This document shows positions 5,712 through 22,643 of a DNA stretch of 64,000 nucleotides, one piece after another (position 1 is the stretch's first letter; each line of letters begins with the position of its first letter). The translations under genes were made by a program, and so were the position numbers. Location of the stretch: assembly GCA_902810695.1 (NCBI GenBank), contig CADDYV010000004.1, forward strand, positions 1-64,000. The letters run 5' to 3'. A model generated the notes under the pieces. The model worked only from the letters and a program-made list of their open reading frames with translations, searched no databases and was not told the DNA's origin. The stretch comes from Actinomycetota bacterium (GTDB lineage Bacteria > Actinomycetota > Rubrobacteria > Rubrobacterales > Rubrobacteraceae).

Positions 5712-6911
5712 CTACTCCCCAGGACGTAGCCACAGCGACACGTGCGCCGGGTGCACGGTTTCGTAAACCACGCCTATCAGATCTCTACTCAATGCGTCCA
5801 GGTCCGCCTCGCTCCGCAGTCTCCTGCCGAAGGCTTCGAGCGTCTTTTGCGCGTCGTATTTGCGGCGGTAGAAACGGCGGTCTATGAGGGTCTGTATGCG
5901 ATGGCGCAGGGGGTTGAACAGCGCCGCGATAGCCAGCGTCGAAGCTGCGACCGCGAGATGTGGCTGCCGCCCTACAACGTCGTGGAACACGTGCTGGAGC
6001 GATATCACACTGCCGAGGTAGATGAGTCCCAGCGAAACGCTCAAAGTCCCGTAGACCAGCGTGCGGTTGATGATCAAATCAATGTCGTAGAGCCGGTAGC
6101 GCAGAATGGCGATGGCGACTGCGGTGGGCAGCCCCACGATGCCCACTATGAACAGCGCGTAACCGCCCCACTTTACCCAGGGATCACCACCGGTAGCCTC
6201 GGCTATGGTATAGGTGAGGATGGCGCCGCTGGAAGCGAGTGCGGCGGCGTAGGCGAACCACTTGAGTTGCTGACGCTCCTCTGCCACCGCACGACGCATC
6301 CGCAAAAGCAGCGAGGCAGCGGCTACCAGCGTGGGAACGAGGACAAGCCAGTTGACCAGCCAGACGACATCCACGCCACCCGAAATCCCGAGCGGATTCT
6401 GTATCGAACCGAGCCCGTCAACAGGACCGGGTGAGAGGGCCGTCGCAACCGCCCCCAACAAGACCAGAGACACGCTCAGGTAGGCGAAGAATCTCCAGCG
6501 CGGAGAAGGCAGCCTCCCGTCGGGAAAGAGCAATCCCAGAAACACGAAAAGCCCGAGATAGAAAACCCAGATCCAGGCTCGCACCCACGCCGCCGCCTCT
6601 CCACCCGGCAGCGTGCCAGGCGCCGCCACAAGCGCATAGGTAGCGTACTCGGCAACGAAATGATCCGCGGCTACCGAGAGCCCTATCGCACAGAAGATCC
6701 ACCCGATAACGTTCTCGGGACGGCGAGAAGATATCACGGCTCCGATCACCGAGAAGACCGCCGCGATCACGGTGTCCTCCAACCAGTAGTCGAAGATGTG
6801 GACACCGGGATGCAGGCGGTTCAAAACCAGCAGAATGAGGCTAATCGCCGTCAGAGCAGTTGAGAGAACCCACGCCAGAAGGGCGATGCGGGGCACCCCC
6901 CGGGCTTTCAC
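5712..6911 (-). CDS. Membrane receptor paralogue 1 (type A) with half-GAF tail
   Basis: The 399-residue product has about ten hydrophobic segments and a cytoplasmic tail. Landmarks shared with six neighbours are RRPENVIGW after the second segment, LLFPDGRLPSPRW, a cytoplasmic loop with ERQQLKW, LYDIDLIINRTLVYG, and after the last segment FYRRKYDAQKTLEAF followed by VHPAHVSLWL close to the C-terminus. The tail of about 45 residues resembles the first helix and strand of a GAF domain, and then the protein stops. There is no kinase, phosphatase or cyclase domain. GTG at 6911 overlaps the TAG of the upstream gene by one base (TAGTG). It is the last gene of the run. A sensor role is inferred. Confidence 0.75.
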   Translation of the reverse strand: MKARGVPRIALLAWVLSTALTAISLILLVLNRLHPGVHIFDYWLEDTVIAAVFSVIGAVISSRRPENVIGWIFCAIGLSVAADHFVAEYATYALVAAPGTLPGGEAAAWVRAWIWVFYLGLFVFLGLLFPDGRLPSPRWRFFAYLSVSLVLLGAVATALSPGPVDGLGSIQNPLGISGGVDVVWLVNWLVLVPTLVAAASLLLRMRRAVAEERQQLKWFAYAAALASSGAILTYTIAEATGGDPWVKWGGYALFIVGIVGLPTAVAIAILRYRLYDIDLIINRTLVYGTLSVSLGLIYLGSVISLQHVFHDVVGRQPHLAVAASTLAIAALFNPLRHRIQTLIDRRFYRRKYDAQKTLEAFGRRLRSEADLDALSRDLIGVVYETVHPAHVSLWLRPGE

Positions 6912-8197
6912 TATTTTTCCTTGCCTTCAGGCTTACACAGCCACAGCGACACGTGTTCCGGTTGCATCGTCTCTCTTACGGTGGTCAGCAAATCCTGCTT
7001 TATTATGCGCAGGTCCGTCTCGTCGCGCAACCTGGCGCCGAAAGCGGAGAGCATCTTCCGGGCGTCGTACTTATCGCGGTAGAAGCGGTGGTCTATAAAA
7101 GCCTGGGTGCGGCCTCGCAGCGGGCTGAACAGGACCGCGATCGCGAGCGTCGAGGCAACCACCGCAAGCTCAGACTTCTGACCGATGAGCGCGAGCAAGG
7201 CGTATTGAAGCACTACGGTCCCGCCGATGTAGAGGGCCAGCAGCATCGCCGTCAGCAAACCGTAGACGAGCGTGCGGTTGATGATGAAGTCTATATCGAA
7301 GAGGCGGTAGCGGAGTATGGAAACCCCGACAGACAGCGGTATGAGCAACATGAACCCTATAGATGCCGTCGCGCTCGCGAAGTCCGCAAACGTCCCCGGT
7401 TGAAGAGATGGAAAAACAACCTGGAGTGCTATCACACCCAGATACCCTGCGATCGCCAGCGCAAAGCCGAAGGCGACCCACTTCGTCTGCTGACGCTCCA
7501 CGTGCCTAGACACCCGCCGGTAGCGGTGGACCTGCGCCACCACGCCGGTCAGCAGCCAGCCCATCAAGAAGAGCGTGTAAGGGAGAGCAGGCCAGTTATC
7601 CGCGATGAACCGGGAGCCCGGAAACAGCGAAGCGAGCACCGTATACGCGACGAGCAGCAAAGCCGCCCACCGCGTCCAGCGCGGCACAAAGCGCCCGTTC
7701 GGGAAAAGATAGAAGAAGACGAACACCAGCATAAAGCTGAGCGAACCAAGAAAGCCGTTCAACCAGCTCAATGCCGGATACGATTTCCCTAGCGCCTGGA
7801 TAGAACCTGGAAAAGTAGCTCCGAACAGCACCAGCAAGAGCGAGACCAAAAGCGCCATCCGGTCATAGGAACGCCGCCAGAAGATGACCGCACCCACCAC
7901 GAAGCACACGCTCGCCAACACCACACCCAGCGCGACGTAATACCAGGCATAGAACTCTACGGAGAGTCCCATGTGCTCCAGGTTGGCGCGGGCCAGTTCC
8001 CGGTAGGAGGCGTTATGGATGATAGACAGCGTGAGAAACTCGGCGTGGTAAGCGGGCAGACTCGCCGCGAACAGCACCACGGACAGCAACGCTATCGCCA
8101 GCCACACTACCCTGGCACCGGCAAGCCAGCCCCCGGATGACACGCTCCATCCGGAAACACCGCCTCCCGAAATGCCTCGACCACCCCGCCATCTCAT
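6911..8197 (-). CDS. Membrane receptor paralogue 2 (type B) with half-GAF tail
   Basis: This 428-residue paralogue differs from type A in its N-terminal half. A long loop of about 50 residues between the first two hydrophobic segments probably faces the outside, followed by AVIFWRRSYDRMALLVS and YLFPNGRFVPRWTRW. The second half matches the family: VERQQTKW, LFDIDFIINRTLVYG, FYRDKYDARKM, then a tail ending in ETMQPEHVSLWL plus nine residues. Its closest relative in the window is the 11143-12444 gene. The start is 54 bases downstream of the SnoaL-like gene, the only real gap within the receptor run. The extracytoplasmic loop is a candidate ligand-binding region; no ligand is known. Confidence 0.75.
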   Translation of the reverse strand: MRWRGGRGISGGGVSGWSVSSGGWLAGARVVWLAIALLSVVLFAASLPAYHAEFLTLSIIHNASYRELARANLEHMGLSVEFYAWYYVALGVVLASVCFVVGAVIFWRRSYDRMALLVSLLLVLFGATFPGSIQALGKSYPALSWLNGFLGSLSFMLVFVFFYLFPNGRFVPRWTRWAALLLVAYTVLASLFPGSRFIADNWPALPYTLFLMGWLLTGVVAQVHRYRRVSRHVERQQTKWVAFGFALAIAGYLGVIALQVVFPSLQPGTFADFASATASIGFMLLIPLSVGVSILRYRLFDIDFIINRTLVYGLLTAMLLALYIGGTVVLQYALLALIGQKSELAVVASTLAIAVLFSPLRGRTQAFIDHRFYRDKYDARKMLSAFGARLRDETDLRIIKQDLLTTVRETMQPEHVSLWLCKPEGKEK

Positions 8198-8251: not shown

Positions 8252-8692
8252 CTACCATCTCCAGGGAGGCCAGCGCCAGAACTGCGTACCGGGCTTGATC
8301 TCCTGCTCGGCAAGCAGGGCTTCCCACAGGAGCCAGGTCTCTTCGATCCTTCCCCCGGAAACGCGGCTGATGCTTATTCCGTTGAGCTCTAGTTGTCCAT
8401 CGCCGGAGGATGATTCCTGCGCCACATCCTGGGCTGGCACGTGGATCTTGAAGCGGGTTACCACTTTCCCCTCTTCCGCGGAGATTTGGTCCTCGATGGT
8501 GATCCTGGTGTCTGGCACGGCGGCCTGGACTTCAGAGAGAATCTCCCGCAGTCTGTCAACTCCGCGGTCTTTCCTGTCGGCCAGATCGTGGAGCACGTAG
8601 CCAGGAGCGAAGATGTCATCCATCGCCTCGAAGTTGCCCTGGTTGTACACCTCATCCCAGAACCTGTTGACGGTCTTCTCGTTTTCTTTCAT
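8252..8692 (-). CDS. SnoaL-like (NTF2-fold) protein embedded in the receptor array
   Basis: The 146-residue product looks like a SnoaL-like/ester-cyclase NTF2-fold protein: FWDEVYNQGNFEAMDDIFAP and YVLHDL at the N-terminus and a C-terminal strand pattern ending in WLLWEALLAEQ, typical of the family. The fold forms a small hydrophobic pocket and serves as an enzyme or a ligand-binding module. Its ATG overlaps the TGA of the upstream receptor gene by one base (TGATG), so the two are translationally coupled. Its placement between two receptor genes suggests that it acts with them, perhaps as a soluble small-molecule binder or modifying enzyme. That is inference. Confidence 0.7.
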   Translation of the reverse strand: MKENEKTVNRFWDEVYNQGNFEAMDDIFAPGYVLHDLADRKDRGVDRLREILSEVQAAVPDTRITIEDQISAEEGKVVTRFKIHVPAQDVAQESSSGDGQLELNGISISRVSGGRIEETWLLWEALLAEQEIKPGTQFWRWPPWRW

Positions 8693-9945
8693 CAGACTCC
8701 TCCTTTTTGTTCCGCGGGCAATCCCGCAGGCTTCGGGTTATCCAAAGACCGCAGCCACAACGAGGCGTGGGAAGGCTGCATCGTCTCCCGCACCACCCCT
8801 ACCAGGTCTTCGATCAAAACGTCCAGGTCCGTCTCCCTCTGCAACCTCTTTCCGAAAGCCTCAAGCGTCATGCGGGCATCGTACTTCCTACGGTAAAATC
8901 GCTGGTCTACCACGTCCTGAATACGACGTCTCAGAGGCTGGAACAGCGCGGCGATGATCAGCGTGGAGACGACGACTGCAGGCTGGGTGTTCTCTTCGAT
9001 AAGCGTACGGAAGAGCCCTTCGAGCAAAACTACGCTCCCGAAATACACCATCGCAAGAGAGGCAGTGAGCGCGCCGTAAACCAGGGTGCGGTTTATGACG
9101 AGGTCTATATCGTAGAGCCTGTAGCGCAGGATGGCGATACCGGCGGAGACCGGTACGGCGGCGACACCAAGGAGAAAAATGGTGGTCCAGATCCATCCGG
9201 GGACCGTAGGCGACCACACGATGGTGGGACCTGCAATAAAAACAGCAGCCAGGAAAGCTCCCGCGTAGGCAAACCATTTGATCTGCTGCCGCTCTAATCG
9301 GCGAGTGCGCCGGAAGCGCAAGACGAGCGAGACCACGGAGATGAGTATCGTCGCCAGCATCAGCGCGAACGCCGAAGACTCGAGGAGATTCCGGACGCTG
9401 GCGAGCGCCTCGATACCGAACGGGTTGGTGACTGAGGGGAAGTTGTTCCTGAGTGGACCGGGTCCAAAGGCGTGTGCGAAGGTGACCAACGCTATAGCGA
9501 TAGCGGTGGCCCACACGATGGGACGCCAGCGACGAGAGAGCAGCCGACCGTCGGGGAAGAGCAGGAGCAGGAACGCAAAAGTGCCTAGAAGGCCGGGGCC
9601 GCCAATCCATTCGGATACCCAGGCCATGACTCTACCCCCGGGAAGCGAGCCAGGCCACATGAAAAGGGTGAAGGAGGCGTATGCATCGGCGAAGCTCCCT
9701 GCGCCAAACGCCAGACCTACGGCGCAGAAGATCCAACCTATAGCGTTTTCGGGACGATGCGAGGCAACCAGCGCTCCGACGCTAGTGAAAGCCAGCGCGA
9801 CCGCGATCAGAGCACCAAAACCTATCAAATCACCTGCAGCGCCATGAGCAAGCCAACTGAGCGTCGCGAAGACGAAGCTTGATATCGCAAGCACCGCCGA
9901 GAGTGCCCACAGCAACCAAGCGAGGCGGGCGGTGTGACGGCTCAT
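8692..9945 (-). CDS. Membrane receptor paralogue 3 (type A) with half-GAF tail
   Basis: This 417-residue type A paralogue shows SHRPENAIGW, LLFPDGRLLSRRW, LERQQIKW, LYDIDLVINRTLVYG and FYRRKYDARMTLEAF, with the half-GAF tail ending in ETMQPSHASLWL followed by about 22 polar residues, the longest extension of the set. Its middle part (GPGPLRNNF and NPFGIEAL) is closest to the 12441-13727 paralogue. The gene overlaps the upstream receptor by four bases (ATGA) and the downstream SnoaL-like gene by one. No catalytic domain is present. Location is the cytoplasmic membrane. Confidence 0.75.
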   Translation of the reverse strand: MSRHTARLAWLLWALSAVLAISSFVFATLSWLAHGAAGDLIGFGALIAVALAFTSVGALVASHRPENAIGWIFCAVGLAFGAGSFADAYASFTLFMWPGSLPGGRVMAWVSEWIGGPGLLGTFAFLLLLFPDGRLLSRRWRPIVWATAIAIALVTFAHAFGPGPLRNNFPSVTNPFGIEALASVRNLLESSAFALMLATILISVVSLVLRFRRTRRLERQQIKWFAYAGAFLAAVFIAGPTIVWSPTVPGWIWTTIFLLGVAAVPVSAGIAILRYRLYDIDLVINRTLVYGALTASLAMVYFGSVVLLEGLFRTLIEENTQPAVVVSTLIIAALFQPLRRRIQDVVDQRFYRRKYDARMTLEAFGKRLQRETDLDVLIEDLVGVVRETMQPSHASLWLRSLDNPKPAGLPAEQKGGV

Positions 9946-11150
9946 CGCCTCTCCAGCTTATGTTCTGACTCCCGTAACCACAGCGAAACGTGCTCCGGTT
10001 GCATTGTTTGCCGTACTACGGCGAGCAACCTCGCATTCAGATCCGCGAGGTTTGTCTCCTCGCGGAGCACAGTAGAAAAGGCTTCGAGCGTCTTGGCCGC
10101 ATCATACTTTCTGCGGTAGAAACGCCGGTCTATGAAGGACTGCACCCTCCTGCGCCACGGCTGGAAGAGGGCTGCGATGGCAAGCGTAGAGACGACCACG
10201 GCGAGCTGGGACTCACTCCCCGTCAGGGCACGGAAAATGTTTTGCAGCACCACCACGCCGACAAAGTAGACCAATACCAGAGAAGCCGTAAGAGCACCGT
10301 AGACGAGGGTGCGGTTGACGATCACATCTATGTCGTAGAGACGGTACTTGAGAATAGCTATGCCGGTGGCCACCGGTAGAGCGGCGAGCAGGAGTCCAAA
10401 GCCCACCTCGTCCAGCCAATTGGGCAATCCAGAGGAGAAAACTATCGTCACGAGACAGATGGCCATCACGACGACGGCGTACACGAGCCACTTGAGCTGC
10501 TGGCGCTCATCACCGCGGGCCCGGTGGAAACGCAGAAACAGTGACGCCAAGCACACGAAGCTGGTAATGAAGAGCAGCGGCAGTCCGAAGCTGTCTACGG
10601 ATTCGAGCATACCGCCCTTATGCCCCACCCCGATCGGGTTGGTGCCATATTTGTTGAACGGGTCTTCGAGGTCGGGCTTGAATATATCCACCACGGTGAA
10701 GAACGTCATCAGACCGAGGGCTAACCACGCGACCGGGCGCCAGCGTGGTGAGGGCAGCCTGCCTGTCGGAAACAGCAGCGGCAAGAACAGCAGCAGCGCA
10801 CAGAAACCCGGGCGGTAGATCCAGCCCCCTACCCACGCCGCCAGCACTCCTCCGGGGAGCGCGCCATGCCGGGTAATGAGGGCGTAGCGCGCGTACTCGC
10901 TCATCAAAGCCCCGATAAAGAACGTAAAAACAACCGGGAACAGCCAGCTGATAGGGTTGCGCGGCTGGCGGGCGACGATCAGCATGCCGATCAACGGGTA
11001 CGATTGCGCCATTACGAGGGTAAACACCTGGGCACCGAACAACTTCCAGGGGTACCCGTTGAGATAGAGCAGAAGAAGCAACAGAGGACTGAGCAGCACG
11101 GAGAACACCCACAGCCCACGGGCAATCCGGATGAGCGTCCGGTCACTCAC
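9942..11150 (-). CDS. Membrane receptor paralogue 4 (type A) with half-GAF tail
   Basis: The 402-residue protein carries ARQPRNPISW, LLFPTGRLPSPRW, DERQQLKW, LYDIDVIVNRTLVYG and FYRRKYDAAKTLEAF, with the tail ending in QTMQPEHVSLWL. I place the start at GTG 11150, which overlaps the upstream stop within GTGAGTGA. An upstream ATG at 11261 would add 37 residues encoded entirely over the preceding gene that match nothing in the family, so it is rejected. The predicted product then begins with SDRTLIRIARGLWVFSVL, matching the length and first membrane helix of its siblings. It lacks any output domain. Confidence 0.75.
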   Translation of the reverse strand: MSDRTLIRIARGLWVFSVLLSPLLLLLLYLNGYPWKLFGAQVFTLVMAQSYPLIGMLIVARQPRNPISWLFPVVFTFFIGALMSEYARYALITRHGALPGGVLAAWVGGWIYRPGFCALLLFLPLLFPTGRLPSPRWRPVAWLALGLMTFFTVVDIFKPDLEDPFNKYGTNPIGVGHKGGMLESVDSFGLPLLFITSFVCLASLFLRFHRARGDERQQLKWLVYAVVVMAICLVTIVFSSGLPNWLDEVGFGLLLAALPVATGIAILKYRLYDIDVIVNRTLVYGALTASLVLVYFVGVVVLQNIFRALTGSESQLAVVVSTLAIAALFQPWRRRVQSFIDRRFYRRKYDAAKTLEAFSTVLREETNLADLNARLLAVVRQTMQPEHVSLWLRESEHKLERR

Positions 11151-12444
11151 GCGAGGCTTTCCGTTGCGGTTCTTGCAACCAGAGCGAGGCATACTCCGGC
11201 TGCATGGTTTGCTGAACGATCGAGACGAGGGCCCCCGCCAGTTCATTGAGATCCGTCTCATCCCTCAGCCTCGCCGAGAAGGTTTCGAGCATTTTTTGAG
11301 CGTCGTACTTGCGGCGATAGAAACGGCGGTCTATAAGCTCCTGGAAGCGTTTCCTGAGAGGGTGGAAGAGCGCAGCGATGGTCAGGGTAGTGGCCACAAC
11401 CGCCAGTTGTGACTCTCCCCCGGTCAACCTGCGAAATGCGTACTGCAGGGCGATCACCAGCCCAAGGTATGTCCCCGCCAGCGATGCTGTAAGTAAACCG
11501 TAGACGAGTGTGCGGTTGATGATGAAGTCTATGTCGAAGAGGCGCGAGCGGAGCATCGCGATCCCGATGGAGATTGGGATGAGCAGCATCGAGAGGTACA
11601 TCCCCGTATTCTGGAGAAGCGTTGCATAGGAGATACGCAGCGTACCGCCCGGTTCGGTGGCGAAATAGGGCAACACAAAAGCGAGAAAACCTGCGAGTGC
11701 CGCTATCGAGCCGAAAACGATCCATTTGGTCTGGTAGCGCTGCTCGGGCGTGGAGACGTAGCGGTAGCGGTAGACCTGGGCGACAAACAGGCTGGTGAGC
11801 AACCCCAGAAACAGCGCTACGGAGGCCGCATTCGACCAGTTCTCCGGGTTGAGAGGCGAGCTCGGAAAGAAGTATTGCGGCACCCGCATTGCCAGGTATG
11901 CCAGGGCAACCCAGCGGGTCCAGCCTGGTACGAAACGCCCGCTCGGGAAAGTGTAGAAGAACATGGTAAGGCAGATCTCACCGAGAAACTGCACGCTTTT
12001 GACCGGCAGCCAGAGCATCGGGTGGGTGGCGCCGAGCACCCCGGATGGACCGTTCAGCAAGGTCGCGGTGCCAAACACGACCAGAAAGAGAGCGACCAGA
12101 AGCGCCATCCAGTCATCGGAGCGGCGCCAGAAGATGACCGCTCCCATCCCGGCCCAGACCGCTCCGCAAAGGGCGGTGAGTATGACGCTGTATGCAGCGT
12201 AGAAGCCAGCGGGAAGACCCAGCGCATGCTGCTGTCGAAAGTTCCGGGCGGCGGGGAGATCGAGGTTCCTGCAGACTCTCGCACCCAGGTCGCAAGCTGC
12301 ATGAAGCTCTCTCCAGTAGGAGAACATCCCGGTAACGAAGAGCCCCACCGCCAGGAGCGCCACAATCAGCCAGGCTATCCGGACGATAGGCAGCAGATGT
12401 CCACGCAGTTGAGTATCCTTCGCCGGCATGGAGGCTCGGGTCAT
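11143..12444 (-). CDS. Membrane receptor paralogue 5 (type B) with half-GAF tail
   Basis: This 433-residue type B paralogue has a long loop (about residues 45-85) after the first membrane helix with two cysteines, in HAACDLGARVCRN, that could form an extracytoplasmic disulfide. It shares AVIFWRRSDDWMALLVA, YTFPSGRFVPGWTRW, LFDIDFIINRTLVYG and FYRRKYDAQKM with the other type B member at 6911-8197. The tail ends in QTMQPEYASLWL plus twelve residues. ATG at 12444 overlaps the upstream TGA by four bases. A ligand or redox sensor role for the loop is inference. Confidence 0.75.
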   Translation of the reverse strand: MTRASMPAKDTQLRGHLLPIVRIAWLIVALLAVGLFVTGMFSYWRELHAACDLGARVCRNLDLPAARNFRQQHALGLPAGFYAAYSVILTALCGAVWAGMGAVIFWRRSDDWMALLVALFLVVFGTATLLNGPSGVLGATHPMLWLPVKSVQFLGEICLTMFFYTFPSGRFVPGWTRWVALAYLAMRVPQYFFPSSPLNPENWSNAASVALFLGLLTSLFVAQVYRYRYVSTPEQRYQTKWIVFGSIAALAGFLAFVLPYFATEPGGTLRISYATLLQNTGMYLSMLLIPISIGIAMLRSRLFDIDFIINRTLVYGLLTASLAGTYLGLVIALQYAFRRLTGGESQLAVVATTLTIAALFHPLRKRFQELIDRRFYRRKYDAQKMLETFSARLRDETDLNELAGALVSIVQQTMQPEYASLWLQEPQRKASRE

Positions 12445-13727
12445 CTTTCTGCTTTAACCTTCCGGGGCTGCTGTGGCTCAAGGAGCCACAGCGAGACGTA
12501 CTCCGGCTGCATCGCCTCCTGCACGACCCCAACAAGTTCTTCGCTGAGCCGATCAAGCTCGGTCTCATCACGGAGCTTCGCCGATAGAATTTCGAGTGTT
12601 CTGGCGGCGTCATACTTGCGGCGGTAGAAAAGCCGGTCAATGAAGCTCTGCGCTCTCCGGCGCAGGGGGTTGAAGAGCGCGGCGATCACGAGCGTCGAAG
12701 CCACGATCGCAAGCTGCGAGCCGCTTCCGGTAAGGGCGTGGAAGATCGCCTGGGTCGCCGTGACGCTCCCGAAGTACACCGCTGCAAGAGAGGCTGTCAG
12801 AGACCCATAGACCAGGGTCCGGTTTATGAATATGTCTATGTCGTAGAGGCGGTACTTGAGGACGGCGAAGCCTATGGCTATTGGGATGCCCGCGTAGCTC
12901 AGCAGGAGCATGTCCTGAGAGATCGAAGCCCACAGCGGCGGCGCGCTGTCGCCGAGCAGGGCCTCCGGCATGAAGAGGTACTGGCCGAGCAGCCCGATCA
13001 GGTACACCAGGCCCACGAAAGAAGCGGCGAATGCGAGCCACTTGATCTGCTGGCGGACCTCTCTGCCAGAGTGCCTGTAGCGCAGGACCAGGCTCGTTGC
13101 CGCAGCGAGGATGCACAGCGGCAACAGCAACACCAGAAAAGCCCCCACGGTCTGTACCCAGGGATACCCTTCGATCCCCAGCGGGTTGCGTGCGCCGCCC
13201 CTGTTCGGCAGCGGTCCGGGGGAGAAAACTATGGCCACGGTGACCACCGCGATCACCGCTCCCGAGAACCAGGCCAGCGGGCGCCACCTCCTCGAAGGGA
13301 GCCCACCGTCCGGGAACAGCAGCACCATGTAGATCCCCAGCAACCCCACGGGTGGCACCCATATCCCCTGGGTCAGCGCGTCAATTATCACCGGGCCGGG
13401 TGCCGAGCCGGTGGTGGCAACGGTGTAGGCCGTGAACTGGTCGCTCGCGACGATGAGCATCCAGAAGAGGCCAACACTCAGACAGATCCAGCCGATAGGA
13501 TTTCCGGGACGCTTGGAAGCGATCAGAGCGCCAACGACCGGGAAGGCGAGGAAGGGTCCGAAGATCAAAAGCTCCCCGGCACCGCTGCTGGGGCCGTAGT
13601 CACCGGAATGTCCGGTGACCGAAGGCTCGGCGGAAAATGTCAGTAGCGCAAACGCAACGCCTGCAACGAACATGGCCACCGAGAGACCGGCGAGCGACCA
13701 GGCCAGCCAGGAGGCGCCCCGGATCAT
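12441..13727 (-). CDS. Membrane receptor paralogue 6 (type A) with half-GAF tail
   Basis: The 428-residue type A protein has SKRPGNPIGW, LLFPDGGLPSRRW, VRQQIKWLAFA, LYDIDIFINRTLVYG and FYRRKYDAARTLEIL, with the tail ending in EAMQPEYVSLWLLEP and a short basic end. Between the first two hydrophobic segments there is a Gly/Ser-rich loop of about 25 residues not found in the other type A members. Overlap with both neighbouring receptor genes is four bases (ATGA), giving tight translational coupling. It has no kinase or phosphatase domain. It is most like the 8692-9945 paralogue through its SPGPLPN and NPLGIEGY segment. Confidence 0.75.
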   Translation of the reverse strand: MIRGASWLAWSLAGLSVAMFVAGVAFALLTFSAEPSVTGHSGDYGPSSGAGELLIFGPFLAFPVVGALIASKRPGNPIGWICLSVGLFWMLIVASDQFTAYTVATTGSAPGPVIIDALTQGIWVPPVGLLGIYMVLLFPDGGLPSRRWRPLAWFSGAVIAVVTVAIVFSPGPLPNRGGARNPLGIEGYPWVQTVGAFLVLLLPLCILAAATSLVLRYRHSGREVRQQIKWLAFAASFVGLVYLIGLLGQYLFMPEALLGDSAPPLWASISQDMLLLSYAGIPIAIGFAVLKYRLYDIDIFINRTLVYGSLTASLAAVYFGSVTATQAIFHALTGSGSQLAIVASTLVIAALFNPLRRRAQSFIDRLFYRRKYDAARTLEILSAKLRDETELDRLSEELVGVVQEAMQPEYVSLWLLEPQQPRKVKAER

Positions 13728-14950
13728 CGCTTCACTCCGCTACTGGAAGGCTTGAGCCACAATGAGACGTGAGAAGGCTGCACCGTTTCCTTTACCACCG
13801 ACACCAGGTCTCCGGTTACGCGGTCGAGATCCGCCTCGTTGCGCAGCCTCGCCGAGAAAACCTCCAGCGTCTTTGCGGCGTCGTACTTCCTGCGATAGAA
13901 GATCCGGTCTATGAAGTTCTGGATGCGGCCTCTCAGAGGGTTGAACAGCGTGGCGATGGCGAGGGTCGAGGCCACAACGGCGAGCTGGTTGCCTTCGCCG
14001 AGGAATGGAGAGAGGAGCCTCTGCAGCCCTGCCACGCTACCGAGGTACACCAGCGCGAGCGTTACGGACAGCGAGCCGTAGACGAGAGTACGGTTTATGA
14101 TGCGGTCGATCTCGTAGAGGCGGTAGCGCAGGATGGCTATCCCTATAGAGAAAGTTATGGCCAGGCCTGCCGCCGTAAAGATCGCCGTGTCGGCCCATTC
14201 GAACCAGCGTGGTGCCTCGATCGCTAGGTTGATTACGTTGAGCACTACGCTTGCAGCGAATATCGCGACGGCATAGGCAAGCCATTTGATCTGCTGGCGC
14301 TCGATCCCTACGGCCCGGCGCAGCCGCACGAACACCGACAGGGCCGCTGCGGCGAACAGAAGTGGAGACGTGATGTACAGAACCGCTTTGTAGATGCTGG
14401 TGAAGCCCTCTATCCCGAGCGGGTTACGGATCGGGCCGAGAGAGCCCAGGTACGCTCCGGGAGAGAACGCGGAAGTGACCACTCCCACCACGATAAAAGC
14501 CACCGTCAGCCACGCCAACCATCTCCAGCGCCTGCCAGGCAATCGCCCCGTGGGGAACAGTAGAATGTAGAAGACCTGAAGGCCGATCATGACAGGAAGT
14601 AGCCAGGAGGCGAGCCAGGCCATCGCTTCACCCGCGGGCAGCGAGTCGGGTTGGACCAGCAGGGCGTAGATGGCGTACGCGGAGGCGAAGGTGCTCGTGC
14701 TTACGGCTACGTCGGATATGCACAGAAGCCAGCCCACGGGGTTCTCCGGTCGGCGCGAGGCCACGATGGCCCCCACGGTCACGTCTATCACGACGGTCGA
14801 GTTGCCGAGCCACCAGTCGAAGATGTGAGCGCCCGGGTGAGCGCGGGTCAGGGCCAGCAGAAGGAGGCTCAGCATCGTCAGCGTCACGCAGAGCGCCCAC
14901 AGCGACCAGGCAAGCCGACCGGCGATCCGTCTGCTCATCCAGGCGGTCAT
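13724..14950 (-). CDS. Membrane receptor paralogue 7 (type A) with half-GAF tail
   Basis: This 408-residue protein is the first receptor gene of the run. It has SRRPENPVGW, LLFPTGRLPGRRW, IERQQIKWLAYA, LYEIDRIINRTLVYG and FYRRKYDAAKTLEVF, and the tail ends in ETVQPSHVSLWLKP plus eight residues. The sequence is closest in feel to the 5712-6911 paralogue. It starts 27 bases after the CrtI-like oxidoreductase, which suggests that the receptors share its transcript. Its short external loops make membrane-embedded or lipophilic signals more likely than a soluble ligand, but this is conjecture. Confidence 0.75.
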   Translation of the reverse strand: MTAWMSRRIAGRLAWSLWALCVTLTMLSLLLLALTRAHPGAHIFDWWLGNSTVVIDVTVGAIVASRRPENPVGWLLCISDVAVSTSTFASAYAIYALLVQPDSLPAGEAMAWLASWLLPVMIGLQVFYILLFPTGRLPGRRWRWLAWLTVAFIVVGVVTSAFSPGAYLGSLGPIRNPLGIEGFTSIYKAVLYITSPLLFAAAALSVFVRLRRAVGIERQQIKWLAYAVAIFAASVVLNVINLAIEAPRWFEWADTAIFTAAGLAITFSIGIAILRYRLYEIDRIINRTLVYGSLSVTLALVYLGSVAGLQRLLSPFLGEGNQLAVVASTLAIATLFNPLRGRIQNFIDRIFYRRKYDAAKTLEVFSARLRNEADLDRVTGDLVSVVKETVQPSHVSLWLKPSSSGVKR

Positions 14951-14977: not shown

Positions 14978-16435
14978 CTAGCTTCCCCGCGCCAGGTAGC
15001 GCAGCGCGGCGCGGGCGGCGAAGTAGCCGCACAGCCCGTGAACGGCCCCGCCCGGCGGCGTCGAAGAGGAGCAGATGTAGAGCCCCTTCACCGGGACCGC
15101 GTAGGGCACGAGCCGCGGGGTAGGACGGGTAAAGAGTTGCCAGAGATCCATAAGCCCCCCGTTTATGTCTCCGCCAATGAGGTTGGCGTTCTGGCGTTCG
15201 AGATCCTGCGGGCTGGAGACGCTTCTGGCGAGGATGCGGTCTCTGAAGCCGGGAGCGAAACGCTCTATCTGGGCTTCGATCCTCTCTGTCATGTCGAAGG
15301 TCGAGCCATTGGGGACGTGGCAGTAGGCCCACACGGTGTGCTTGCCCTCGGGCGCGCGCGTCGGGTCGAAGAGGCTCTGCTGCGCCAGGAGGACGAACGG
15401 ACGCTCGGGGTGTTTGCCGTCCGCCACCGCCCGCTCTCCGGCGGATATCTCATCGAGCGTGCCGCCGAGATGTACGGTCCCGGCCAGGGCGCACTCTTCC
15501 GCCTTCCACGGGATAGGCCCATCCAGGGCGTAGTCCAACTTGAAGACGCCGGGTCCGTAGCGGTATCGCTTGAGCTTTCTCGCGTACCCGGAGGGCAGGA
15601 CGTGGCCTGCGATCTCCAGCAGTTGCCGGGGCGTTACGTCGAAGAGCGCCACGCGCGCCGGCGGCAGTTGCTCTATAGATCCGACGCGAGCGCCGGTTAC
15701 GATCTCACCGCCCAGAGAGCGAAGGCAGGATGCCAGCGCATCGGCGATCTTCTGCGAACCGCCCTTCGGTATCGGCCAGCCCACGACGTGCCCGAGGGAC
15801 TGGAGAACCAGCCCGAAGGAGGCACTGGGCCGCTGATCTAGCGCCAAAAACGAGTGAGCGGCGTTGCCCGCGAAAAGAGCCCGAGCCCGTTCGCCTTTGA
15901 ACCAACCTCTCGCGAGGCTGCGGGCGCTCCTTATAGCCTGCATCCCGAAGTGGGAGAGCGCAATCGGATGACGCGGAGGACGCAGCGGTCCCTGCACGAG
16001 AGGCGATATCCTGTCCCAGTCGGAGACGATCGGCTCCATGAGTTTTTGGTAGGCGGCAGTATCCGGACCGAGAGCCGCGGCAGTATCTTCGATCGAGCGA
16101 TGCAGGATGGCCGCTGAACCACTATCCAGCGGGTGTGCCAGCGGCGCATCTGGTTGGATCCACTCCAATCCATGCTCCTCTAGCGGCAGCGAGCGGAAGA
16201 ACGGCGAGGCGAGCCCCATGGGATGGATCGCCGAGCCGAGGTCGTGGACGAAGCCGGGCAGGGTAAGCTCCGCCGAGCGCGCGCCGCCACCGATGGTATC
16301 CTCGGCCTCCAGCACCACCACCGAATATCCGTGGCGCGCCATCTCGATCGCCGCCGAGAGGCCGTTGGGACCCGCCCCCACCACGACGACGTCGTAGGAG
16401 TTGCGCCGGGTCATCTCCCGGATCGCAGGTCTCAT
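14978..16435 (-). CDS. CrtI/phytoene-desaturase-like FAD oxidoreductase
   Basis: The 485-residue flavoprotein has an N-terminal Rossmann FAD motif (VVVGAGPNGLSAA, about residues 17-29), then E-A-E-D at the end of the second strand and GGGARSAEL, which is the pattern of phytoene desaturase-related amine-oxidase-fold enzymes (CrtI/PYROXD2 type). The C-terminal FAD segment is GLYICSSSTPPGGAVHGLCGY, again CrtI-like. The substrate could be a carotenoid or another polyprenyl or lipid compound; no other carotenoid gene lies in the window. It sits 31 bases after the second DUF1990-like gene and 27 bases before the receptor run, apparently in the same operon, so it may make or modify the molecule that the receptors sense. 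Confidence 0.75.
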   Translation of the reverse strand: MRPAIREMTRRNSYDVVVVGAGPNGLSAAIEMARHGYSVVVLEAEDTIGGGARSAELTLPGFVHDLGSAIHPMGLASPFFRSLPLEEHGLEWIQPDAPLAHPLDSGSAAILHRSIEDTAAALGPDTAAYQKLMEPIVSDWDRISPLVQGPLRPPRHPIALSHFGMQAIRSARSLARGWFKGERARALFAGNAAHSFLALDQRPSASFGLVLQSLGHVVGWPIPKGGSQKIADALASCLRSLGGEIVTGARVGSIEQLPPARVALFDVTPRQLLEIAGHVLPSGYARKLKRYRYGPGVFKLDYALDGPIPWKAEECALAGTVHLGGTLDEISAGERAVADGKHPERPFVLLAQQSLFDPTRAPEGKHTVWAYCHVPNGSTFDMTERIEAQIERFAPGFRDRILARSVSSPQDLERQNANLIGGDINGGLMDLWQLFTRPTPRLVPYAVPVKGLYICSSSTPPGGAVHGLCGYFAARAALRYLARGS

Positions 16436-16466: not shown

Positions 16467-17222
16467 CTATCGCCGGAGCAACCCGAAGATCCGGCGTCCC
16501 GGCGCTGAGACGGCGTAGATCATAGACCTCACGCTCGCGTTGTTCCAGACGTTGCCCACGTTCGACCACTGCAGCCTGGGGTCCACGCAGACTTTTTCGA
16601 GGCTTACCGGGTCATCCACGCCGAAGTGGGCTGCCAGAGACTTCAGGACGTGGGTCCAGATCCTCTCCTGCTCGGTCGAGCCGGCGAGGCGGAATCCCAT
16701 CTCGTAGATCGGGTCGTTGGCGCGCGCCAGCGACTGTATCTGAGCCACCGTATGCCCCTCTTCGTTCTGGTAGGCGGAGAACGTGTTCCATCCGCTTTCC
16801 GGATGCCCCTCGGGGGTCATTACGGTGAAGCATTCCTCATCAGCGTAGAGCACGATGACGCCGGTGTAGACCGGCATGCCCTTCATGGAGGCGTTTATGA
16901 GCAGCATCTCGCCCGGCTTGACCCCGGCCAGCGAGGGATAGAACCGGTTTTGCGGCGGCTGGAACTCGGAGAACTTCTCCTTCCAGACCCTGACTACTTC
17001 CTCCGGCGTAACGCCGGTTCCGAGGTAGATCCGGTACGTCTTCTGCCAGAGCTGGCCGAATCCCTGCAGCGCTCCGGCGGTGCGGCGTCCCTCGACGTTG
17101 AGGTTGATTGCCTCCGCGGGAACTTCCGAGACCTTCAGCTTCTCGACGTGTCGCGCCCAGTATGCGGCATCGCGCGGCTGCTTCTGCGCGGTGTGCTCCT
17201 CGGCTGGCGGTTTCTGTTCCAT
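16467..17222 (-). CDS. DUF1990-like protein, copy 2
   Basis: The 251-residue protein is a close paralogue of the next gene upstream. A charged N-terminus is followed by RDAAYWARHVEKLKVSEVP, NLNVEGRRTAGALQGFGQLW and a C-terminal half with TPEGHPESGW, an F, and later ARANDP. The GHPESG...F and aromatic/Arg pattern recalls DUF1990 (UPF0548) proteins, whose function is unknown. No signal peptide or membrane helix is visible. It lies 21 bases after its paralogue and 31 bases before the CrtI-like gene. A lipocalin- or START-like binding role is possible but unsupported. Confidence 0.65.
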   Translation of the reverse strand: MEQKPPAEEHTAQKQPRDAAYWARHVEKLKVSEVPAEAINLNVEGRRTAGALQGFGQLWQKTYRIYLGTGVTPEEVVRVWKEKFSEFQPPQNRFYPSLAGVKPGEMLLINASMKGMPVYTGVIVLYADEECFTVMTPEGHPESGWNTFSAYQNEEGHTVAQIQSLARANDPIYEMGFRLAGSTEQERIWTHVLKSLAAHFGVDDPVSLEKVCVDPRLQWSNVGNVWNNASVRSMIYAVSAPGRRIFGLLRR

Positions 17223-17243: not shown

Positions 17244-18008
17244 CTAGTTCGTCGGCTTTCGTTCGCGCCGAGGGCGCATCGGGGCAAGCACCGCGTAGAT
17301 CATTGACCAGATGAGGGCGTTGTACCGGATATTCCCCGCCTGGGACCACTGCCGCCGGGGATCCAGACACGTTACCCTGCTCTCCACTTTCCCGCCTGTT
17401 CCGAAGTAGGACGCCAGAGAGCGCAGCGTGTGCTGCCAGGTTCTGTCCTCGATTCTGTGGAGTCCCACCGGCATCATGAGCTCGTAGAGCGGATCGTTGG
17501 CCCGGATGATGAGTTGGGCCTGCGCGACCGTCGTGCCCTCGTCATCGGCGTAGGAACTGAACGTGATCCAACCCGAAAAAGGATGTCCTTCGGGGGTCAT
17601 GTAGGTGAAGGACTCCTCGTCGGAGTAGAGCACCATTACACCGGTCGAGAACCACCTGCTTCCCGGCACGTCGCTGTTGATCAGGGCCACCGCACCAGGA
17701 GCTAGGCCGCCTTTCGGCGCGAGAAAGCGGTTGCCCGGCATCCAGAACTCCGGGAACCTCTCCTTCCAGACCTTGACTACCTCCGCGGGCGTTGCGCCGC
17801 TGCCCTCCAGTGGTATCCTGTAGGTCTTCTGCCACATCCTGCCGAACCCCTGCAGGGGACCCACGACCCGGCGGCCTTCCACGTTCAGATTGACCGCGCC
17901 CTCGGGAACCTCGGAGATCTTGAGTGCTTTTACGCCTTGGGCCCAGTAGGCAGCGTCGCGCGGGTTCTTTTGCAGATTTTCTTTTGGTTGTGGGGGTTGA
18001 CCGGCCAT
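17244..18008 (-). CDS. DUF1990-like protein, copy 1
   Basis: The 254-residue product shares the whole layout of its neighbour at 16467-17222: NPRDAAYWAQGVKALKISEVP, NLNVEGRRVVGPLQGFGRMW, TPEGHPFSGW, and a C-terminal part with DPRRQWSQAGNIRYN. The pair arose by tandem duplication. Family assignment to DUF1990 is by motif pattern only. ATG at 18008 is preceded by GAGGA five bases upstream (GAGGACCCATG). Its position between the STAS gene and the oxidoreductase suggests co-transcription with the signalling genes. Confidence 0.65.
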   Translation of the reverse strand: MAGQPPQPKENLQKNPRDAAYWAQGVKALKISEVPEGAVNLNVEGRRVVGPLQGFGRMWQKTYRIPLEGSGATPAEVVKVWKERFPEFWMPGNRFLAPKGGLAPGAVALINSDVPGSRWFSTGVMVLYSDEESFTYMTPEGHPFSGWITFSSYADDEGTTVAQAQLIIRANDPLYELMMPVGLHRIEDRTWQHTLRSLASYFGTGGKVESRVTCLDPRRQWSQAGNIRYNALIWSMIYAVLAPMRPRRERKPTN

Positions 18009-18046: not shown

Positions 18047-18406
18047 TCACGCTTTGTTCGCCGCCCGGAGTGCCTCGGTCTCGGTGTCGTAGATGCTTAT
18101 GGCGTCGTCGAGGCGTGTGATCTGGAAGATGCTGCGGTAGTGGTCGGAGAGGCCGTAGGTCAGGAGCTTCTGCTTCTCGCGGTTCACCCGGATCAGGAGC
18201 GTAACCAGGAGCCCGATCCCACTGCTGTTCATATACTCCAGCCCCTCGAAGTTGAGGATTATGGCGCGGACGCCTCCATCGCTGGCCTCATCGTAGGCAG
18301 ACATCAAGACACCCTCCGCAAAGGCCGTAAGCTCGCCCTTTATGTCTATGACGCTGACCCCATCTCTGACCTTCCTGACGTCCATCGTTACCTGGGCCTG
18401 GGGCAT
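18047..18406 (-). CDS. STAS-domain anti-sigma-factor antagonist (second)
   Basis: The 119-residue STAS protein is of the SpoIIAA/RsbV type. The phosphorylation loop reads YMNSSGIGLLV, with Ser following Asn where the canonical motif has Asp-Ser. It shares GLSDHY and ITRL with the STAS protein upstream. The start is placed at ATG 18406 because GGAGG lies six bases before it; an ATG at 18412 overlaps that ribosome site, and longer readings to 18517 run through non-conserved sequence. It should be a substrate of the phosphatase and kinase domains encoded two genes upstream. A 112-base gap separates it from the first STAS gene. Confidence 0.85.
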   Translation of the reverse strand: MPQAQVTMDVRKVRDGVSVIDIKGELTAFAEGVLMSAYDEASDGGVRAIILNFEGLEYMNSSGIGLLVTLLIRVNREKQKLLTYGLSDHYRSIFQITRLDDAISIYDTETEALRAANKA

Positions 18407-18518
18407 GTTCATCCTCCTTATCCGAATTAGTTCGTGTATCCCTTGATGCTCGGCCCGCAAGCTCTGAAGCGAGCCTGGCAATGACACTCCATCTTCTTTC
18501 ACATCGCCCGTCATCATC

Positions 18519-18887
18519 TCAGGCTCCCGCGGATTTGGTCAGGGCGCTCTCCTCGTCGGGAAAAAGGCTCATGAAGTCCGAGAGGCGGGTGATGTTGAAG
18601 ATCTCCACGTAGTGATCCGAGAGCCCGCAGGCCAGAAGGCGTCGTCTGGAAGCCCGGGCCTTCGCGAGCAGGCCGACTATGAGCGCGATACCGGTCGAGT
18701 TTATGTAGTCCACCTCAGAGAAGTTGAGCAGGATGATGTCGGGGTCTCTGGACTCGGCTTCGGCATAGGCGGCGTCGAGGGCTTCCTGCGAGAACCCGTC
18801 TATCTCGCCGCGAAGTTCGATCACCGCCGCTCCGGCCCGCTCTCCGGGTGGGTATCGTACGCTCGCTTCAAGGTGCTTAGCTGGCAT
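18519..18887 (-). CDS. STAS-domain anti-sigma-factor antagonist (first)
   Basis: The 122-residue SpoIIAA/RsbV-like protein has the STAS core VIELRGEIDGFSQEAL, the loop YINSTGIALIVGLL with the predicted phospho-acceptor Ser or Thr, and the C-terminal GLSDHY...ITRL strand-helix. In partner-switching systems the unphosphorylated form binds an RsbW-type kinase and frees its target. The ATG at 18887 overlaps the phosphatase/kinase gene by 11 bases, so the two are coupled. Asn replaces the usual Asp before the acceptor Ser, as in its partner at 18047. Confidence 0.85.
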   Translation of the reverse strand: MPAKHLEASVRYPPGERAGAAVIELRGEIDGFSQEALDAAYAEAESRDPDIILLNFSEVDYINSTGIALIVGLLAKARASRRRLLACGLSDHYVEIFNITRLSDFMSLFPDEESALTKSAGA

Positions 18888-20532
18888 CGCCTTCTCCCTT
18901 CAGGTACAGGACCAGTTCGACGGTATGATGCTTCTCGTCGCTGGCAACATTCATCTCATCCACCATGCTCTCGATCAGGAAGAGCCCCCAGCCGCGCGGA
19001 GTCTGTAATCCCTCCAGCTTGGCCTCGAGATCCGGCACCTCCGACTTGGGAACGGGGCTTCCGCCCTGGTCGGTGATCCGCACCGAAAGAGCCTTGCCGG
19101 ATGAGAGCACCTCGATAACCACCGGCACCTCAGCCCTGTATTTGTTGCCGTGCTCCATGGCGTTCATCGTCGCCTCGGCCACAGCGGTCTTGAGCTTCTC
19201 CATCCTGCCGGGGTCGAGCCCCGCCTGCTTCGCGACTTCGGCCACCTTCTCCATGGCCTCTCTCTCGTTTCCCGGCTCGCTCGGCACGCTCAGCCGCTCT
19301 AGTGTCCGCCAGTTCTCCCCTCCCCCAGCTTCCTCCGAAGAACTGACTGCAGGCCCGTCCACACTCATAACTCCCTCCGATCTCTGCAGTGTTACCAGGG
19401 TGATGTCATCCTCCTGCTCCCAGCCTTCGCCGGTGAATTTCGCCAGTTCGTTCAGCAGAAATTCCACCAGCGTCCCCTCGCTGTTGGCGCCGTGATCCCC
19501 AATGAGCGCCTGCAGGTGCGGGAACCCGAACATTTCGCGTTCGGGGTTGTGCGCCTCGACCAGACCGTCGCTGTAGAAGAGAACGCTGTCCCCGTGGTCC
19601 AGCAGCACTTCTTTCTCCTCGTAGGCCATGCCGGGCATGAGTCCCAGCGGCATCCCCCGCGCCCTAAGCTCCTGCGCCCCCTCTTCGTATCGGCGGTAAG
19701 GCAGATCGTGCCCGGCGTTGGCGTAGCGCAGTACCCCGCTCTCCGGGTCGAGTATGGCGTACAGGCAGGTAACAAACATGTTCGGCGGGATGTCCGGATA
19801 GAGCACGTCGTTGGCTCTCTGGAGCACCTCTCCGGGCGAGTCGAAGCGCTGGGCGGCGGAACGCAGTATGGTGCGGGTGGTCGCCATAACCAGGGCCGCG
19901 GGCACGCCCTTGTCGGTAACGTCGCCTACCACGATCCCCAGACGGCCGTCTTCTAGCTCCATGAAGTCGTAGAAGTCGCCGCCGACCTCCCTCGCGGGCT
20001 GGTAGTGGGCAGCAATGCTCCAGCCTTCGAGCTGGGGCACGACCTTGGGCAAAAGCGTCTGCTGGATGAGGCGCGCGATCCTGAGCTCCTGCTCGATGCG
20101 CTCGCGTTCTTGTGCCTCAGCCTGCTGCTGGCGCACCAGTTGGGCGAGCCTCACAGCTGGCGCCGTCTGGGACGCGAGATCCGCGAGAAGCTTGCGGTCG
20201 TCGGCGGAGTATTCCTGCTGGCTCATGCGAGGCCCCAGGTTCAGAACCCCGATCAACTCCCCCTGGCTCACCAGCGGAATCGCCATCTTCACCCCGGCAG
20301 ACTTCATCTCCCGCAGCGCGGGAGAGTCCAGCTCCAGCTTCTCCACGTCAACGATCCCCGCAACATTCTGGAAGTACGCCAGGATGGGATCGTTAGGGGC
20401 TATCTCCGGCGCCGGAACCTCGGTAGAGCGCACGCGCTCTTCGGTTGCCGGTGCGATCACCTGCGCCTCGCGGCTGCCCTGTCCCAGAACCGTCCGCCAC
20501 AGTCTCCAACGATTTTTGCCTCTCTTCATCAT
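18877..20532 (-). CDS. SpoIIE/PP2C phosphatase with partial GAF and RsbW-like ATPase domains
   Basis: The 551-residue protein is cytoplasmic. Residues 46-133 match the second half of a GAF domain (GVKMAIPLVSQGELIGVLNLG, then YSADDRKLL and an A-rich helix), but the first helix and strand are missing. A helical linker (133-160) leads to a SpoIIE-type PP2C domain with GGDFYDF (184-190), GDVTDKG (203-209) and DDITLV (375-380), all metal-binding positions present. Residues 410-551 form an RsbW-type HATPase with N-box EATMNAMEHGN (453-463), TDQGG and RGWGLFLI. It can thus both phosphorylate and dephosphorylate STAS partners, two of which are encoded next. It is the first gene of the run that ends with seven membrane proteins carrying the complementary GAF start. 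Confidence 0.85.
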   Translation of the reverse strand: MMKRGKNRWRLWRTVLGQGSREAQVIAPATEERVRSTEVPAPEIAPNDPILAYFQNVAGIVDVEKLELDSPALREMKSAGVKMAIPLVSQGELIGVLNLGPRMSQQEYSADDRKLLADLASQTAPAVRLAQLVRQQQAEAQERERIEQELRIARLIQQTLLPKVVPQLEGWSIAAHYQPAREVGGDFYDFMELEDGRLGIVVGDVTDKGVPAALVMATTRTILRSAAQRFDSPGEVLQRANDVLYPDIPPNMFVTCLYAILDPESGVLRYANAGHDLPYRRYEEGAQELRARGMPLGLMPGMAYEEKEVLLDHGDSVLFYSDGLVEAHNPEREMFGFPHLQALIGDHGANSEGTLVEFLLNELAKFTGEGWEQEDDITLVTLQRSEGVMSVDGPAVSSSEEAGGGENWRTLERLSVPSEPGNEREAMEKVAEVAKQAGLDPGRMEKLKTAVAEATMNAMEHGNKYRAEVPVVIEVLSSGKALSVRITDQGGSPVPKSEVPDLEAKLEGLQTPRGWGLFLIESMVDEMNVASDEKHHTVELVLYLKGEGDAS

Positions 20533-22619: not shown

Positions 22620-22643
22620 CCTCCTTTCCCTCGTCAGCGTACT

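Follow-up and report, generated by a model that had tools for sequence, protein, structure and literature searches.

Partner switching with a kinase and a phosphatase on one chain is already known, from Rv1364c of Mycobacterium tuberculosis, HsbR of Pseudomonas aeruginosa and CrsR of Shewanella. We describe here a locus encoding a chain of this kind in 64,000 nt of DNA (the window: positions 1 to 64,000 of contig CADDYV010000004.1, assembly GCA_902810695.1) from an Actinomycetota bacterium of the Rubrobacteraceae. The gene for the chain, called PP2C-kinase below, heads an operon that continues with genes for two small STAS proteins (STAS1 and STAS2), two DUF1990-like proteins, a CrtI/CrtO-like flavoenzyme, seven membrane proteins and a further flavoprotein, to about position 4100 (Table 1). 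A first-pass annotation of the same DNA had described a three-gene core ending at 18047; the operon runs well past that end, and the annotation missed the DUF1990-like (Bet v1-fold) genes, the flavoenzyme, the seven membrane-protein genes and a partial GAF domain on the PP2C-kinase. Gene content, conserved gene order, intact catalytic residues, complementary protein ends and co-occurrence are direct observations. From them we infer, tentatively, a receptor-gated partner-switching module with an output other than a SigB/F/G-type sigma factor, with domain complementation, phosphorylation and target identity as the interpreted parts.

By both sequence and structure, the best match of the PP2C-kinase is Rv1364c (PDB 3ke6), which likewise carries an RsbU-type PP2C and an RsbW-type kinase on one chain. 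Rv1364c differs in that its chain also includes a sensor of PAS type and a STAS domain (PMC12143880; statements citing this and the other PMC sources hold for the sections drawn on here); in the window the GAF is partial and the two STAS proteins are separate from the chain. Pfam finds neither PAS nor STAS on the PP2C-kinase, and the PAS-PP2C-kinase-STAS architecture is accordingly absent from it. HsbR-HsbA and CrsR-CrsA are alike in combining a one-chain PP2C and kinase with a separate STAS protein, the partners of HsbA including FlgM and a diguanylate cyclase; they differ in their receiver-domain input and single STAS protein (PMC6482189). No N-terminal receiver was found on the PP2C-kinase, where Pfam shows only the partial GAF. 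The icfG operon of Synechocystis (IcfG, Slr1861, Slr1856, Slr1859) also groups a PP2C, an RsbW-type kinase and two STAS proteins, together with an isoamylase gene; the sections cited name no sigma gene in the cluster. There the kinase and phosphatase are separate, the kinase controls SigC, and a split GAF is not told of in those sections (PMC12329169).

Activation of RsbU-type phosphatases goes through a helical linker at the N-terminus, by which they dimerise, and RsbZ and other phosphatases of GAF-PP2C type have been modelled alike; their input is the activator RsbT or a tandem GAF on the chain, in the sections cited, and not a GAF part contributed by membrane proteins (PMC12143880). Finally, one-chain membrane-GAF histidine kinases (PrsK-like, including one on contig C2 of this genome) have the same membrane part and GAF region, with the GAF unsplit and a histidine kinase as output. 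Among the papers listed by the literature searches, none appeared, judged by title and abstract opening, to deal with the present module. Within that literature, the apparently new features, judged from sequence comparison, would be a GAF divided between membrane protein and enzyme and a conserved coupling to a Bet v1-fold protein. The one-chain kinase-phosphatase was considered as the novelty and rejected, since Rv1364c and HsbR are known and 12 of 69 relatives have the two domains in separate frames.

The enzymatic parts of the PP2C-kinase are clear. The SpoIIE/PP2C match (PF07228; E 3.8e-52, 177.5 bits against a gathering score of 25) and the HATPase_c_2 match (PF13581; E 5.1e-23, 81.9 bits against 27.4) are both strong; the equivalog cut-offs for the kinase domain are not reached (spIIAB 42 against 135, RsbW 41.5 against 145). 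Five PP2C positions (D186, D204, D322, D375, D376) and seven ATPase positions (E453, N457, H461, D488, G490, G514, G516), which we take to be the catalytic ones, are identical in all 39 aligned PP2C-kinases. They include the metal-binding Asp residues expected of a PP2C (D186, D204, D322, D375) and the N, G1 and G2 box residues expected of an RsbW-type kinase (E453, N457, D488, G490, G514, G516). The first-pass description of a 551-residue chain with a complete PP2C and a complete RsbW-type ATPase thus holds. Its proposal that the protein both removes and adds phosphate on STAS proteins is, with both sites intact and invariant, the natural reading, although still a reading of sequence. The single chain itself seems to be optional: in the 69 loci where both domains could be read, they share one frame in 57 and lie in two frames in 12. 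Five of these 12 come from records labelled Rubrobacter or Rubrobacteraceae and two from Actinobacteria records; some of the remainder may be frameshifts. Relatives of the PP2C or PP2C-kinase also occur with other sensors: CHASE-PP2C-kinase (L202:368-2749), SnoaL-PP2C (L202:5451-6728) and DUF7134-PP2C with a separate kinase open reading frame (ORF) (L203:1155-5310).

Both small proteins match Pfam STAS (E 1.3e-13 for STAS1 and 1.2e-14 for STAS2) and exceed the TIGR00377 superfamily cut-off of 53.45 (56.0 and 61.1), with the acceptor Ser preceded by Asn and not Asp. The two ORFs are as first annotated, except for the start of STAS2, which most likely lies at 18406, where a strong ribosome-binding site (AAGGAGG) precedes ATGCCC and where several homologues begin; the 18047-18517 frame is present, and the protein would be shortened to 119 amino acids (aa). 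Asn precedes the acceptor Ser in 80 of 80 STAS1 relatives (79 by pattern, and L077, whose true motif was read separately) and 71 of 71 STAS2 relatives, making it a fixed feature and not decay.

One could suppose that phosphorylation is inert, because of this Asn or of the ATPase, and that the two STAS proteins serve as a structural scaffold. Among five solved homologues with shown alignments, four have Asp at the position where Asn stands here, and RsfB has Gly. The Ser itself is kept in 150 of 150 STAS proteins (151 with one more) and the ATPase and PP2C positions listed above do not vary, so that an inert scaffold is very improbable. In two further STAS proteins, encoded in L130 (7146-7862 and 17089-17502), Asn likewise precedes the acceptor position (MNSRG). 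Judged by eye, the N-terminal part of the first contains cysteine, and a part resembling it is encoded by a gene of its own ahead of the second; the genes between them are CheB/CheR-like and histidine kinase genes.

The grouping of PP2C and STAS genes is more than chance, as the module recurs in the 80 loci fetched. These were the best 80 of 187 STAS1 matches, a sample biased toward near relatives; their record labels (Rubrobacter, Ktedonobacteria, Anaerolineae, Thermobaculum, Thermoleophilaceae and others) spread from Rubrobacter to Chloroflexota, with organism names as deposited, including e.g. Pleurocapsa and Proteobacteria. Ktedonobacter racemifer, a cultured relative, is among the carriers of the module (L031). 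Three module loci in records labelled Proteobacteria and Pleurocapsa (L029, L042, L046) may carry wrong labels. Gene order was read from one frame-independent search, the denominators being loci with enough flank. Upstream of STAS1 are the ATPase part (74 of 75 loci), the PP2C (69 of 70), the GAF part (64 of 66) and a membrane-protein gene (40 of 56); downstream are STAS2 (68 of 73), a DUF1990-like gene (62 of 71) and the CrtI/CrtO-like flavoenzyme (49 of 58 eligible loci). The recurring operon has one or two DUF1990-like genes; the seven tandem membrane-protein genes are those of this window. Where there is an upstream membrane-protein gene, at most 200 bases separate it from the PP2C-kinase ORF in 26 of 43 loci.

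The membrane proteins of the module have no kinase domain. Each of those in the window shows 8-13 segments in a crude hydropathy scan, some of them overlapping, or about 7-9 once these are merged by eye, for which reason they are called multi-pass and their helix number is approximate; a Pfam scan of four of the seven found no family above cut-off. What marks them is where they end. In 44 of 44 listed, the C-terminus lies 43-77 residues past an RxKYD motif, nearly always just past a strand-like VSLWL (one, from L014, is apparently frameshifted). Of 144 distinct membrane-protein ORFs, 140 stop no more than 50 aa beyond the match; this set was mostly fetched through module genes or by similarity to a short membrane protein, which favours short ones.

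Relatives that continue further are histidine kinases: we collected 22 one-chain proteins that share this membrane part, each of which has a histidine-kinase motif (LHDG or IHDG), and HisKA_3 was found in nine of nine scanned. A hidden Markov model (HMM) was built from these 22. Against 71 membrane proteins from the window and module loci, the match runs from model position 1 to a median of 131, ending between 124 and 142 in 67; against 65 PP2C-kinases it starts at a median of 145 (145 also for that of the window), and at 130 or later in 64. The NCBIfam PrsK model divides similarly, three scanned membrane proteins matching up to 348-350 and the PP2C-kinase at 408-470, in weak matches (E 2e-8 to 0.003) far below the model cut-off.

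The AlphaFold2 (AF2) model of the PP2C-kinase (mean predicted local distance difference test score, pLDDT, 86; predicted template modelling score 0.56; residues 1-40 mostly of low confidence) has helices at 49-56 and 71-78, strands 83-89 and 92-99, which are the only strands in the GAF region, and a helix at 110-160 leading into the PP2C. In addition, one natural fusion was found: an 896-aa protein (L199:1347-4037), outside the set used to build the HMM, in which the membrane part runs directly into the PP2C. It spans HMM positions 1-201 and has the full PF01590 GAF model (1-133 of 133, residues 469-614) and a PP2C, with no kinase domain. Since this fusion and the 22 histidine kinases contain both parts in a single chain, receptor and enzyme of the module appear each to carry a portion of one sensor domain. 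Two other candidate fusions were dropped, L197 because its membrane-protein gene is in another frame and L198 because its long frame has no membrane-protein match.

Several observations weigh against a split GAF. The fusion is the single true one, with an insertion of about 55 residues between its two parts, and only PF01590 spans its domain, GAF_2 and GAF_3 matching just the C-terminal part. A GAF match reaches the model start in only one of nine scanned one-chain kinases (L223), the others matching in the C-terminal part like the PP2C-kinase, whose GAF_2 match (positions 89-135 of 136) is not diagnostic by itself. A control, the PAS-GAF-PP2C of the same genome (L129), whose GAF is complete by Pfam (GAF_3 7-129 of 129), aligns to the HMM only from 142; a late alignment start is therefore no proof in itself of a missing N-terminal part, for which the AF2 model and the fusion are the evidence. 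Both controls indicate that the N-terminal part of this GAF is poorly conserved, so that partial matches on the PP2C-kinase prove nothing alone, and the one-chain kinases and the fusion make the extent of Pfam GAF matches a weaker argument for a split. Further, in 16 of 56 loci no membrane-protein gene is seen upstream. What supports a split is thus how sharply the membrane proteins end, together with the AF2 model and the single fusion.

These controls favour a different interpretation, in which the GAF-like ends of the membrane proteins complement nothing and are a general dimerisation stub, the PP2C-kinase senses separately in the cytoplasm through a reduced GAF of its own, and the genes are co-located for expression only. 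It gains also from the AF2 model of the N-terminal part of the PP2C-kinase alone, with a pLDDT of about 90 over residues 41-100, and from the distribution of the family in this genome: besides the seven proteins of the window there are three on contig C8, one on C50 and one on C16, all short, the thirteenth being the histidine kinase on C2. The complementary boundaries are nonetheless sharp (67 of 71 and 64 of 65 proteins), the fusion has a complete GAF, and membrane proteins accompany every close PP2C-kinase in the genomes surveyed below. We consider the stub unlikely. Three tandem short membrane-protein genes elsewhere in this genome (L154:6229-10203) have no PP2C-kinase beside them.

Co-occurrence was counted in 197 Actinomycetota genomes, 19 with a close PP2C-kinase and 178 others. 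The cut of E 1e-170 for the PP2C-kinase was placed above a gap in the best per-genome matches, which then fall to about 1e-47; thresholds were E 1e-20 for the membrane-protein family, 1e-10 for DUF1990-like proteins and 1e-90 for the flavoenzyme. For the PP2C-kinase, the membrane proteins and the flavoenzyme, scoring was confined to the top 7-8 candidates of each genome, with frame lengths taken from stop to stop; p-values are descriptive, ignoring the relatedness of genomes. The membrane-protein family is present in 19 of 19 PP2C-kinase genomes and 13 of 178 others (p 2.6e-18). Among the frames listed, short ones outnumber long ones 95 to 10 in PP2C-kinase genomes, against 10 to 19 in the others (p 3e-9; this count omits four frames of 521-639 aa and takes as short any frame truncated at the end of a contig). 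To be set against the proposed pairing are short frames in three of the 13 genomes that have the family but lack a close PP2C-kinase (G145, G017, G193). The DUF1990-like family follows the module closely: 18 of 19 against 1 of 178 (p 2.6e-23).

At the level of sequence the DUF1990-like proteins sit at the edge of their Pfam family (PF09348, gathering score 23), with 23.4 bits for protein b and 17.8 for protein a. The AF2 model (pLDDT 91) has a Foldseek best E of 3.3e-5, with 7-18% identity in the 50 matches shown, and structure comparison (VIA) gives Z 12.2 and a root-mean-square deviation of 3.1 over 137 aligned residues. As modelled, this is a Bet v1/START-type fold, and what is shared is the fold only. 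Membership in the abscisic acid receptors (PYR/PYL) was tried and rejected, as their gate motif, SGLPA, is in none of 54 sequences. A second module in L203 bears on the place of this protein in the system: STAS1, STAS2 and the DUF1990-like gene are kept, while the PP2C has a DUF7134 sensor and the kinase is on a separate ORF. The input has been swapped and the output kept, and the DUF1990-like protein thus belongs with the STAS proteins and not with the membrane/GAF sensor. We take the Bet v1-fold protein as the likeliest candidate for a direct or indirect target of the STAS proteins, with the flavoenzyme as a possible effector.

Alternatively, STAS1 and STAS2 might bind the flavoenzyme itself and switch the oxidation of an isoprenoid or a lipid, the Bet v1-fold protein then serving to carry lipid. 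Bet v1/START folds often bind lipids and isoprenoids, and the flavoenzyme, where it lies downstream in the module loci, is 49-72% identical to that of the window. One argument against such direct metabolic control is that the flavoenzyme is not specific to the module: it occurs in 16 of the 19 PP2C-kinase genomes (two of them distant, at 48%) and also in 57 of 178 others (p 1.3e-5), so that the enzyme works without the module. This weakens it as a module-specific output, and tells against the version of our own reading in which it is the effector. It also scores just 143.8 bits with the CrtO beta-carotene ketolase model (NF045689), whose curated cut-off is 1000. Direct control of the flavoenzyme is, on balance, quite unlikely. 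A second pairing of a PP2C with a carotenoid-type gene occurs in the genome, the PAS-GAF-PP2C gene in L129:694-4275 adjoining, by eye, another phytoene-dehydrogenase-like gene.

As a further possibility, the system could be an ordinary sigma switch, with the RsbW-like domain as anti-sigma factor for one of two unlinked genes (C8:31983 or C8:51053), release by the STAS proteins, and the other operon genes as its regulon. The first-pass annotation had seen no sigma or anti-sigma gene nearby, and none was found on closer inspection: tblastn of the window with five sigma proteins and the RsbW-like protein of the same genome returned nothing at E 0.01, the sole listed Sigma70_r4 match on the contig is outside the window (at 81063), and the sole HATPase_c_2 match is the PP2C-kinase itself. 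In the 80 related loci there is no SigB/F/G-, WhiG- or RpoD-type match except a weak WhiG match on an extracytoplasmic function (ECF) gene; ECF-type matches are in three, and the other 77 have no sigma match. The sigma gene of a classical Rsb/SpoIIA operon was thus not found in the window, nor a SigB/F/G-type match in any of the 80 loci.

The target may nevertheless be a sigma factor encoded elsewhere, a warning given by the icfG kinase and its control of SigC: Slr1861 proved to be an anti-SigC factor with no sigma gene told of in its operon in the sections cited (PMC12329169). A genome search for an orphan sigma factor, proposed in the first-pass annotation, turned up one clear SigB/F/G factor (C8:31983) and one below cut-off (C8:51053), neither with a full RsbW-like gene seen beside it, and a lone RsbW-like gene on C38, which is another candidate anti-sigma factor and to that extent speaks against the switch. 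A 95-aa protein just upstream of the SigB/F/G gene (L132:6625-6912) resembled RsbW by eye, a reading that was rejected (no Pfam match at E 0.5; chance-level similarity to the RsbW-like protein of this genome); it might be a small regulator of the sigma factor.

The survey of genomes cuts both ways. SigB/F/G models are above cut-off in all 19 actinobacterial module genomes, which counts against a non-SigB/F/G output, and in one further Rubrobacteraceae genome (G206); about 20 of the 22 matching genomes are distinct, the coordinates of G207 and G208 equalling those of G135 and G194, probably the same assemblies. In nine non-actinobacterial module genomes, which keep STAS1 at 50-65% identity, no SigB/F/G match is above cut-off. 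All nine have sub-threshold matches at RpoD level (the best 148 bits, against 143 for the RpoD of the window genome); two genomes have a frame shorter than 270 aa (141 and 114 bits) and others have frames of 307-341 aa, possibly divergent factors. A SigB/F/G factor is accordingly an unlikely candidate for the conserved target. The suggestion that the output may not be transcription finds support in these nine genomes and less in this one, which has a SigB/F/G factor. An ordinary sigma switch seems to us rather unlikely; in actinobacteria there may yet be a sigma output.

Our tentative reading, then, is as follows. The C-terminal end of each membrane protein would supply the start of a GAF domain (by alignment, the first helix and strand), and the soluble PP2C-kinase the remainder, so that receptor and enzyme complete one domain between them. 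The state of the completed GAF might reach the PP2C domain along helix 110-160, as in RsbU-type phosphatases, whose known linker activation fits this helix (PMC12143880). STAS1 and STAS2 would be phosphorylated by the RsbW-like domain at the Ser that follows the invariant Asn, and the PP2C would remove that phosphate; several receptors would compete for, or be integrated by, one PP2C-kinase. In one phospho-state the STAS proteins would bind a target other than a SigB/F/G sigma factor. The leading candidate for it is the Bet v1-fold protein, which is specific to the module and may act on the flavoenzyme.

In its fullest form, with seven or more receptors taking turns in completing the GAF and the Asn-Ser STAS proteins directed to the Bet v1-fold protein and a carotenoid-type flavoenzyme and not to sigma, the proposal is doubtful. 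In bringing together a Bet v1 fold, a PP2C and an enzyme of carotenoid type, the module resembles parts of abscisic acid signalling in plants; this is an analogy, with no PYL gate motif present and no kinship claimed.

Table 1. Features of the module and its flanks in the window (positions from the first letter of the 64,000-nt stretch).
Feature	Position	Strand	Remarks
BTAD-AAA-TPR (SARP-type) regulator, divergent	130..3030	+	relatives beside 23/80 modules
Pyridine-nucleotide disulphide oxidoreductase-like flavoprotein	4100..5557	-	relatives beside 14/80 modules
Multi-pass membrane protein 7	5712..6911	-	same type as protein 1
Multi-pass membrane protein 6	6911..8197	-	same type as protein 1
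Multi-pass membrane protein 5	8692..9945	-	same type as protein 1
Multi-pass membrane protein 4	9942..11261	-	same type as protein 1
Multi-pass membrane protein 3	11143..12444	-	same type as protein 1
Multi-pass membrane protein 2	12441..13727	-	same type as protein 1
Multi-pass membrane protein 1	13724..14950	-	ends after start of GAF
CrtI/CrtO-like FAD (flavin adenine dinucleotide) oxidoreductase	14978..16435	-	
DUF1990-like protein b	16467..17222	-	paralogue of a
DUF1990-like protein a	17244..18008	-	predicted Bet v1/START-type fold
STAS2 ORF, 156 aa	18047..18517	-	motif YMNSSGIG (N97-S98); likely start 18406 (119 aa)
STAS1, 122 aa	18519..18887	-	motif YINSTGIA (N63-S64); 11-base overlap with end of PP2C-kinase gene
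PP2C-kinase, 551 aa	18877..20532	-	partial GAF, long helix, SpoIIE-type PP2C, RsbW/SpoIIAB-type ATPase
RsbW/SpoIIAB-type ATPase (kinase) domain, residues 416-541	18910..19287	-	Pfam HATPase_c_2
PP2C (SpoIIE/RsbU) phosphatase domain, residues 195-384	19381..19950	-	Pfam, structure match, conserved residues
C-terminal part of GAF, residues ~43-135	20128..20406	-	first helix and strand apparently missing

Two flanking genes recur less often. Relatives of the disulphide-oxidoreductase-like flavoprotein are at least 55% identical in 13 of their 14 loci and below 30% in the other. The divergent BTAD-AAA-TPR regulator, one of whose relatives is only 28% identical, is a possible transcriptional link to the module. 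Upstream of the PP2C-kinase lie GMC oxidoreductase and gluconate 2-dehydrogenase subunit 3-like genes (20868-23345, minus strand), which are not among the conserved genes of the 80 loci.

If the proposed module is real, many membrane receptors would be heard by one soluble phosphatase-kinase, through completion of its sensor domain, and partner switching with an output other than SigB/F/G would extend across at least two phyla, going by record labels. It would also give functions to the short membrane proteins and the DUF1990-like proteins, two families to which the searches made here assign none.

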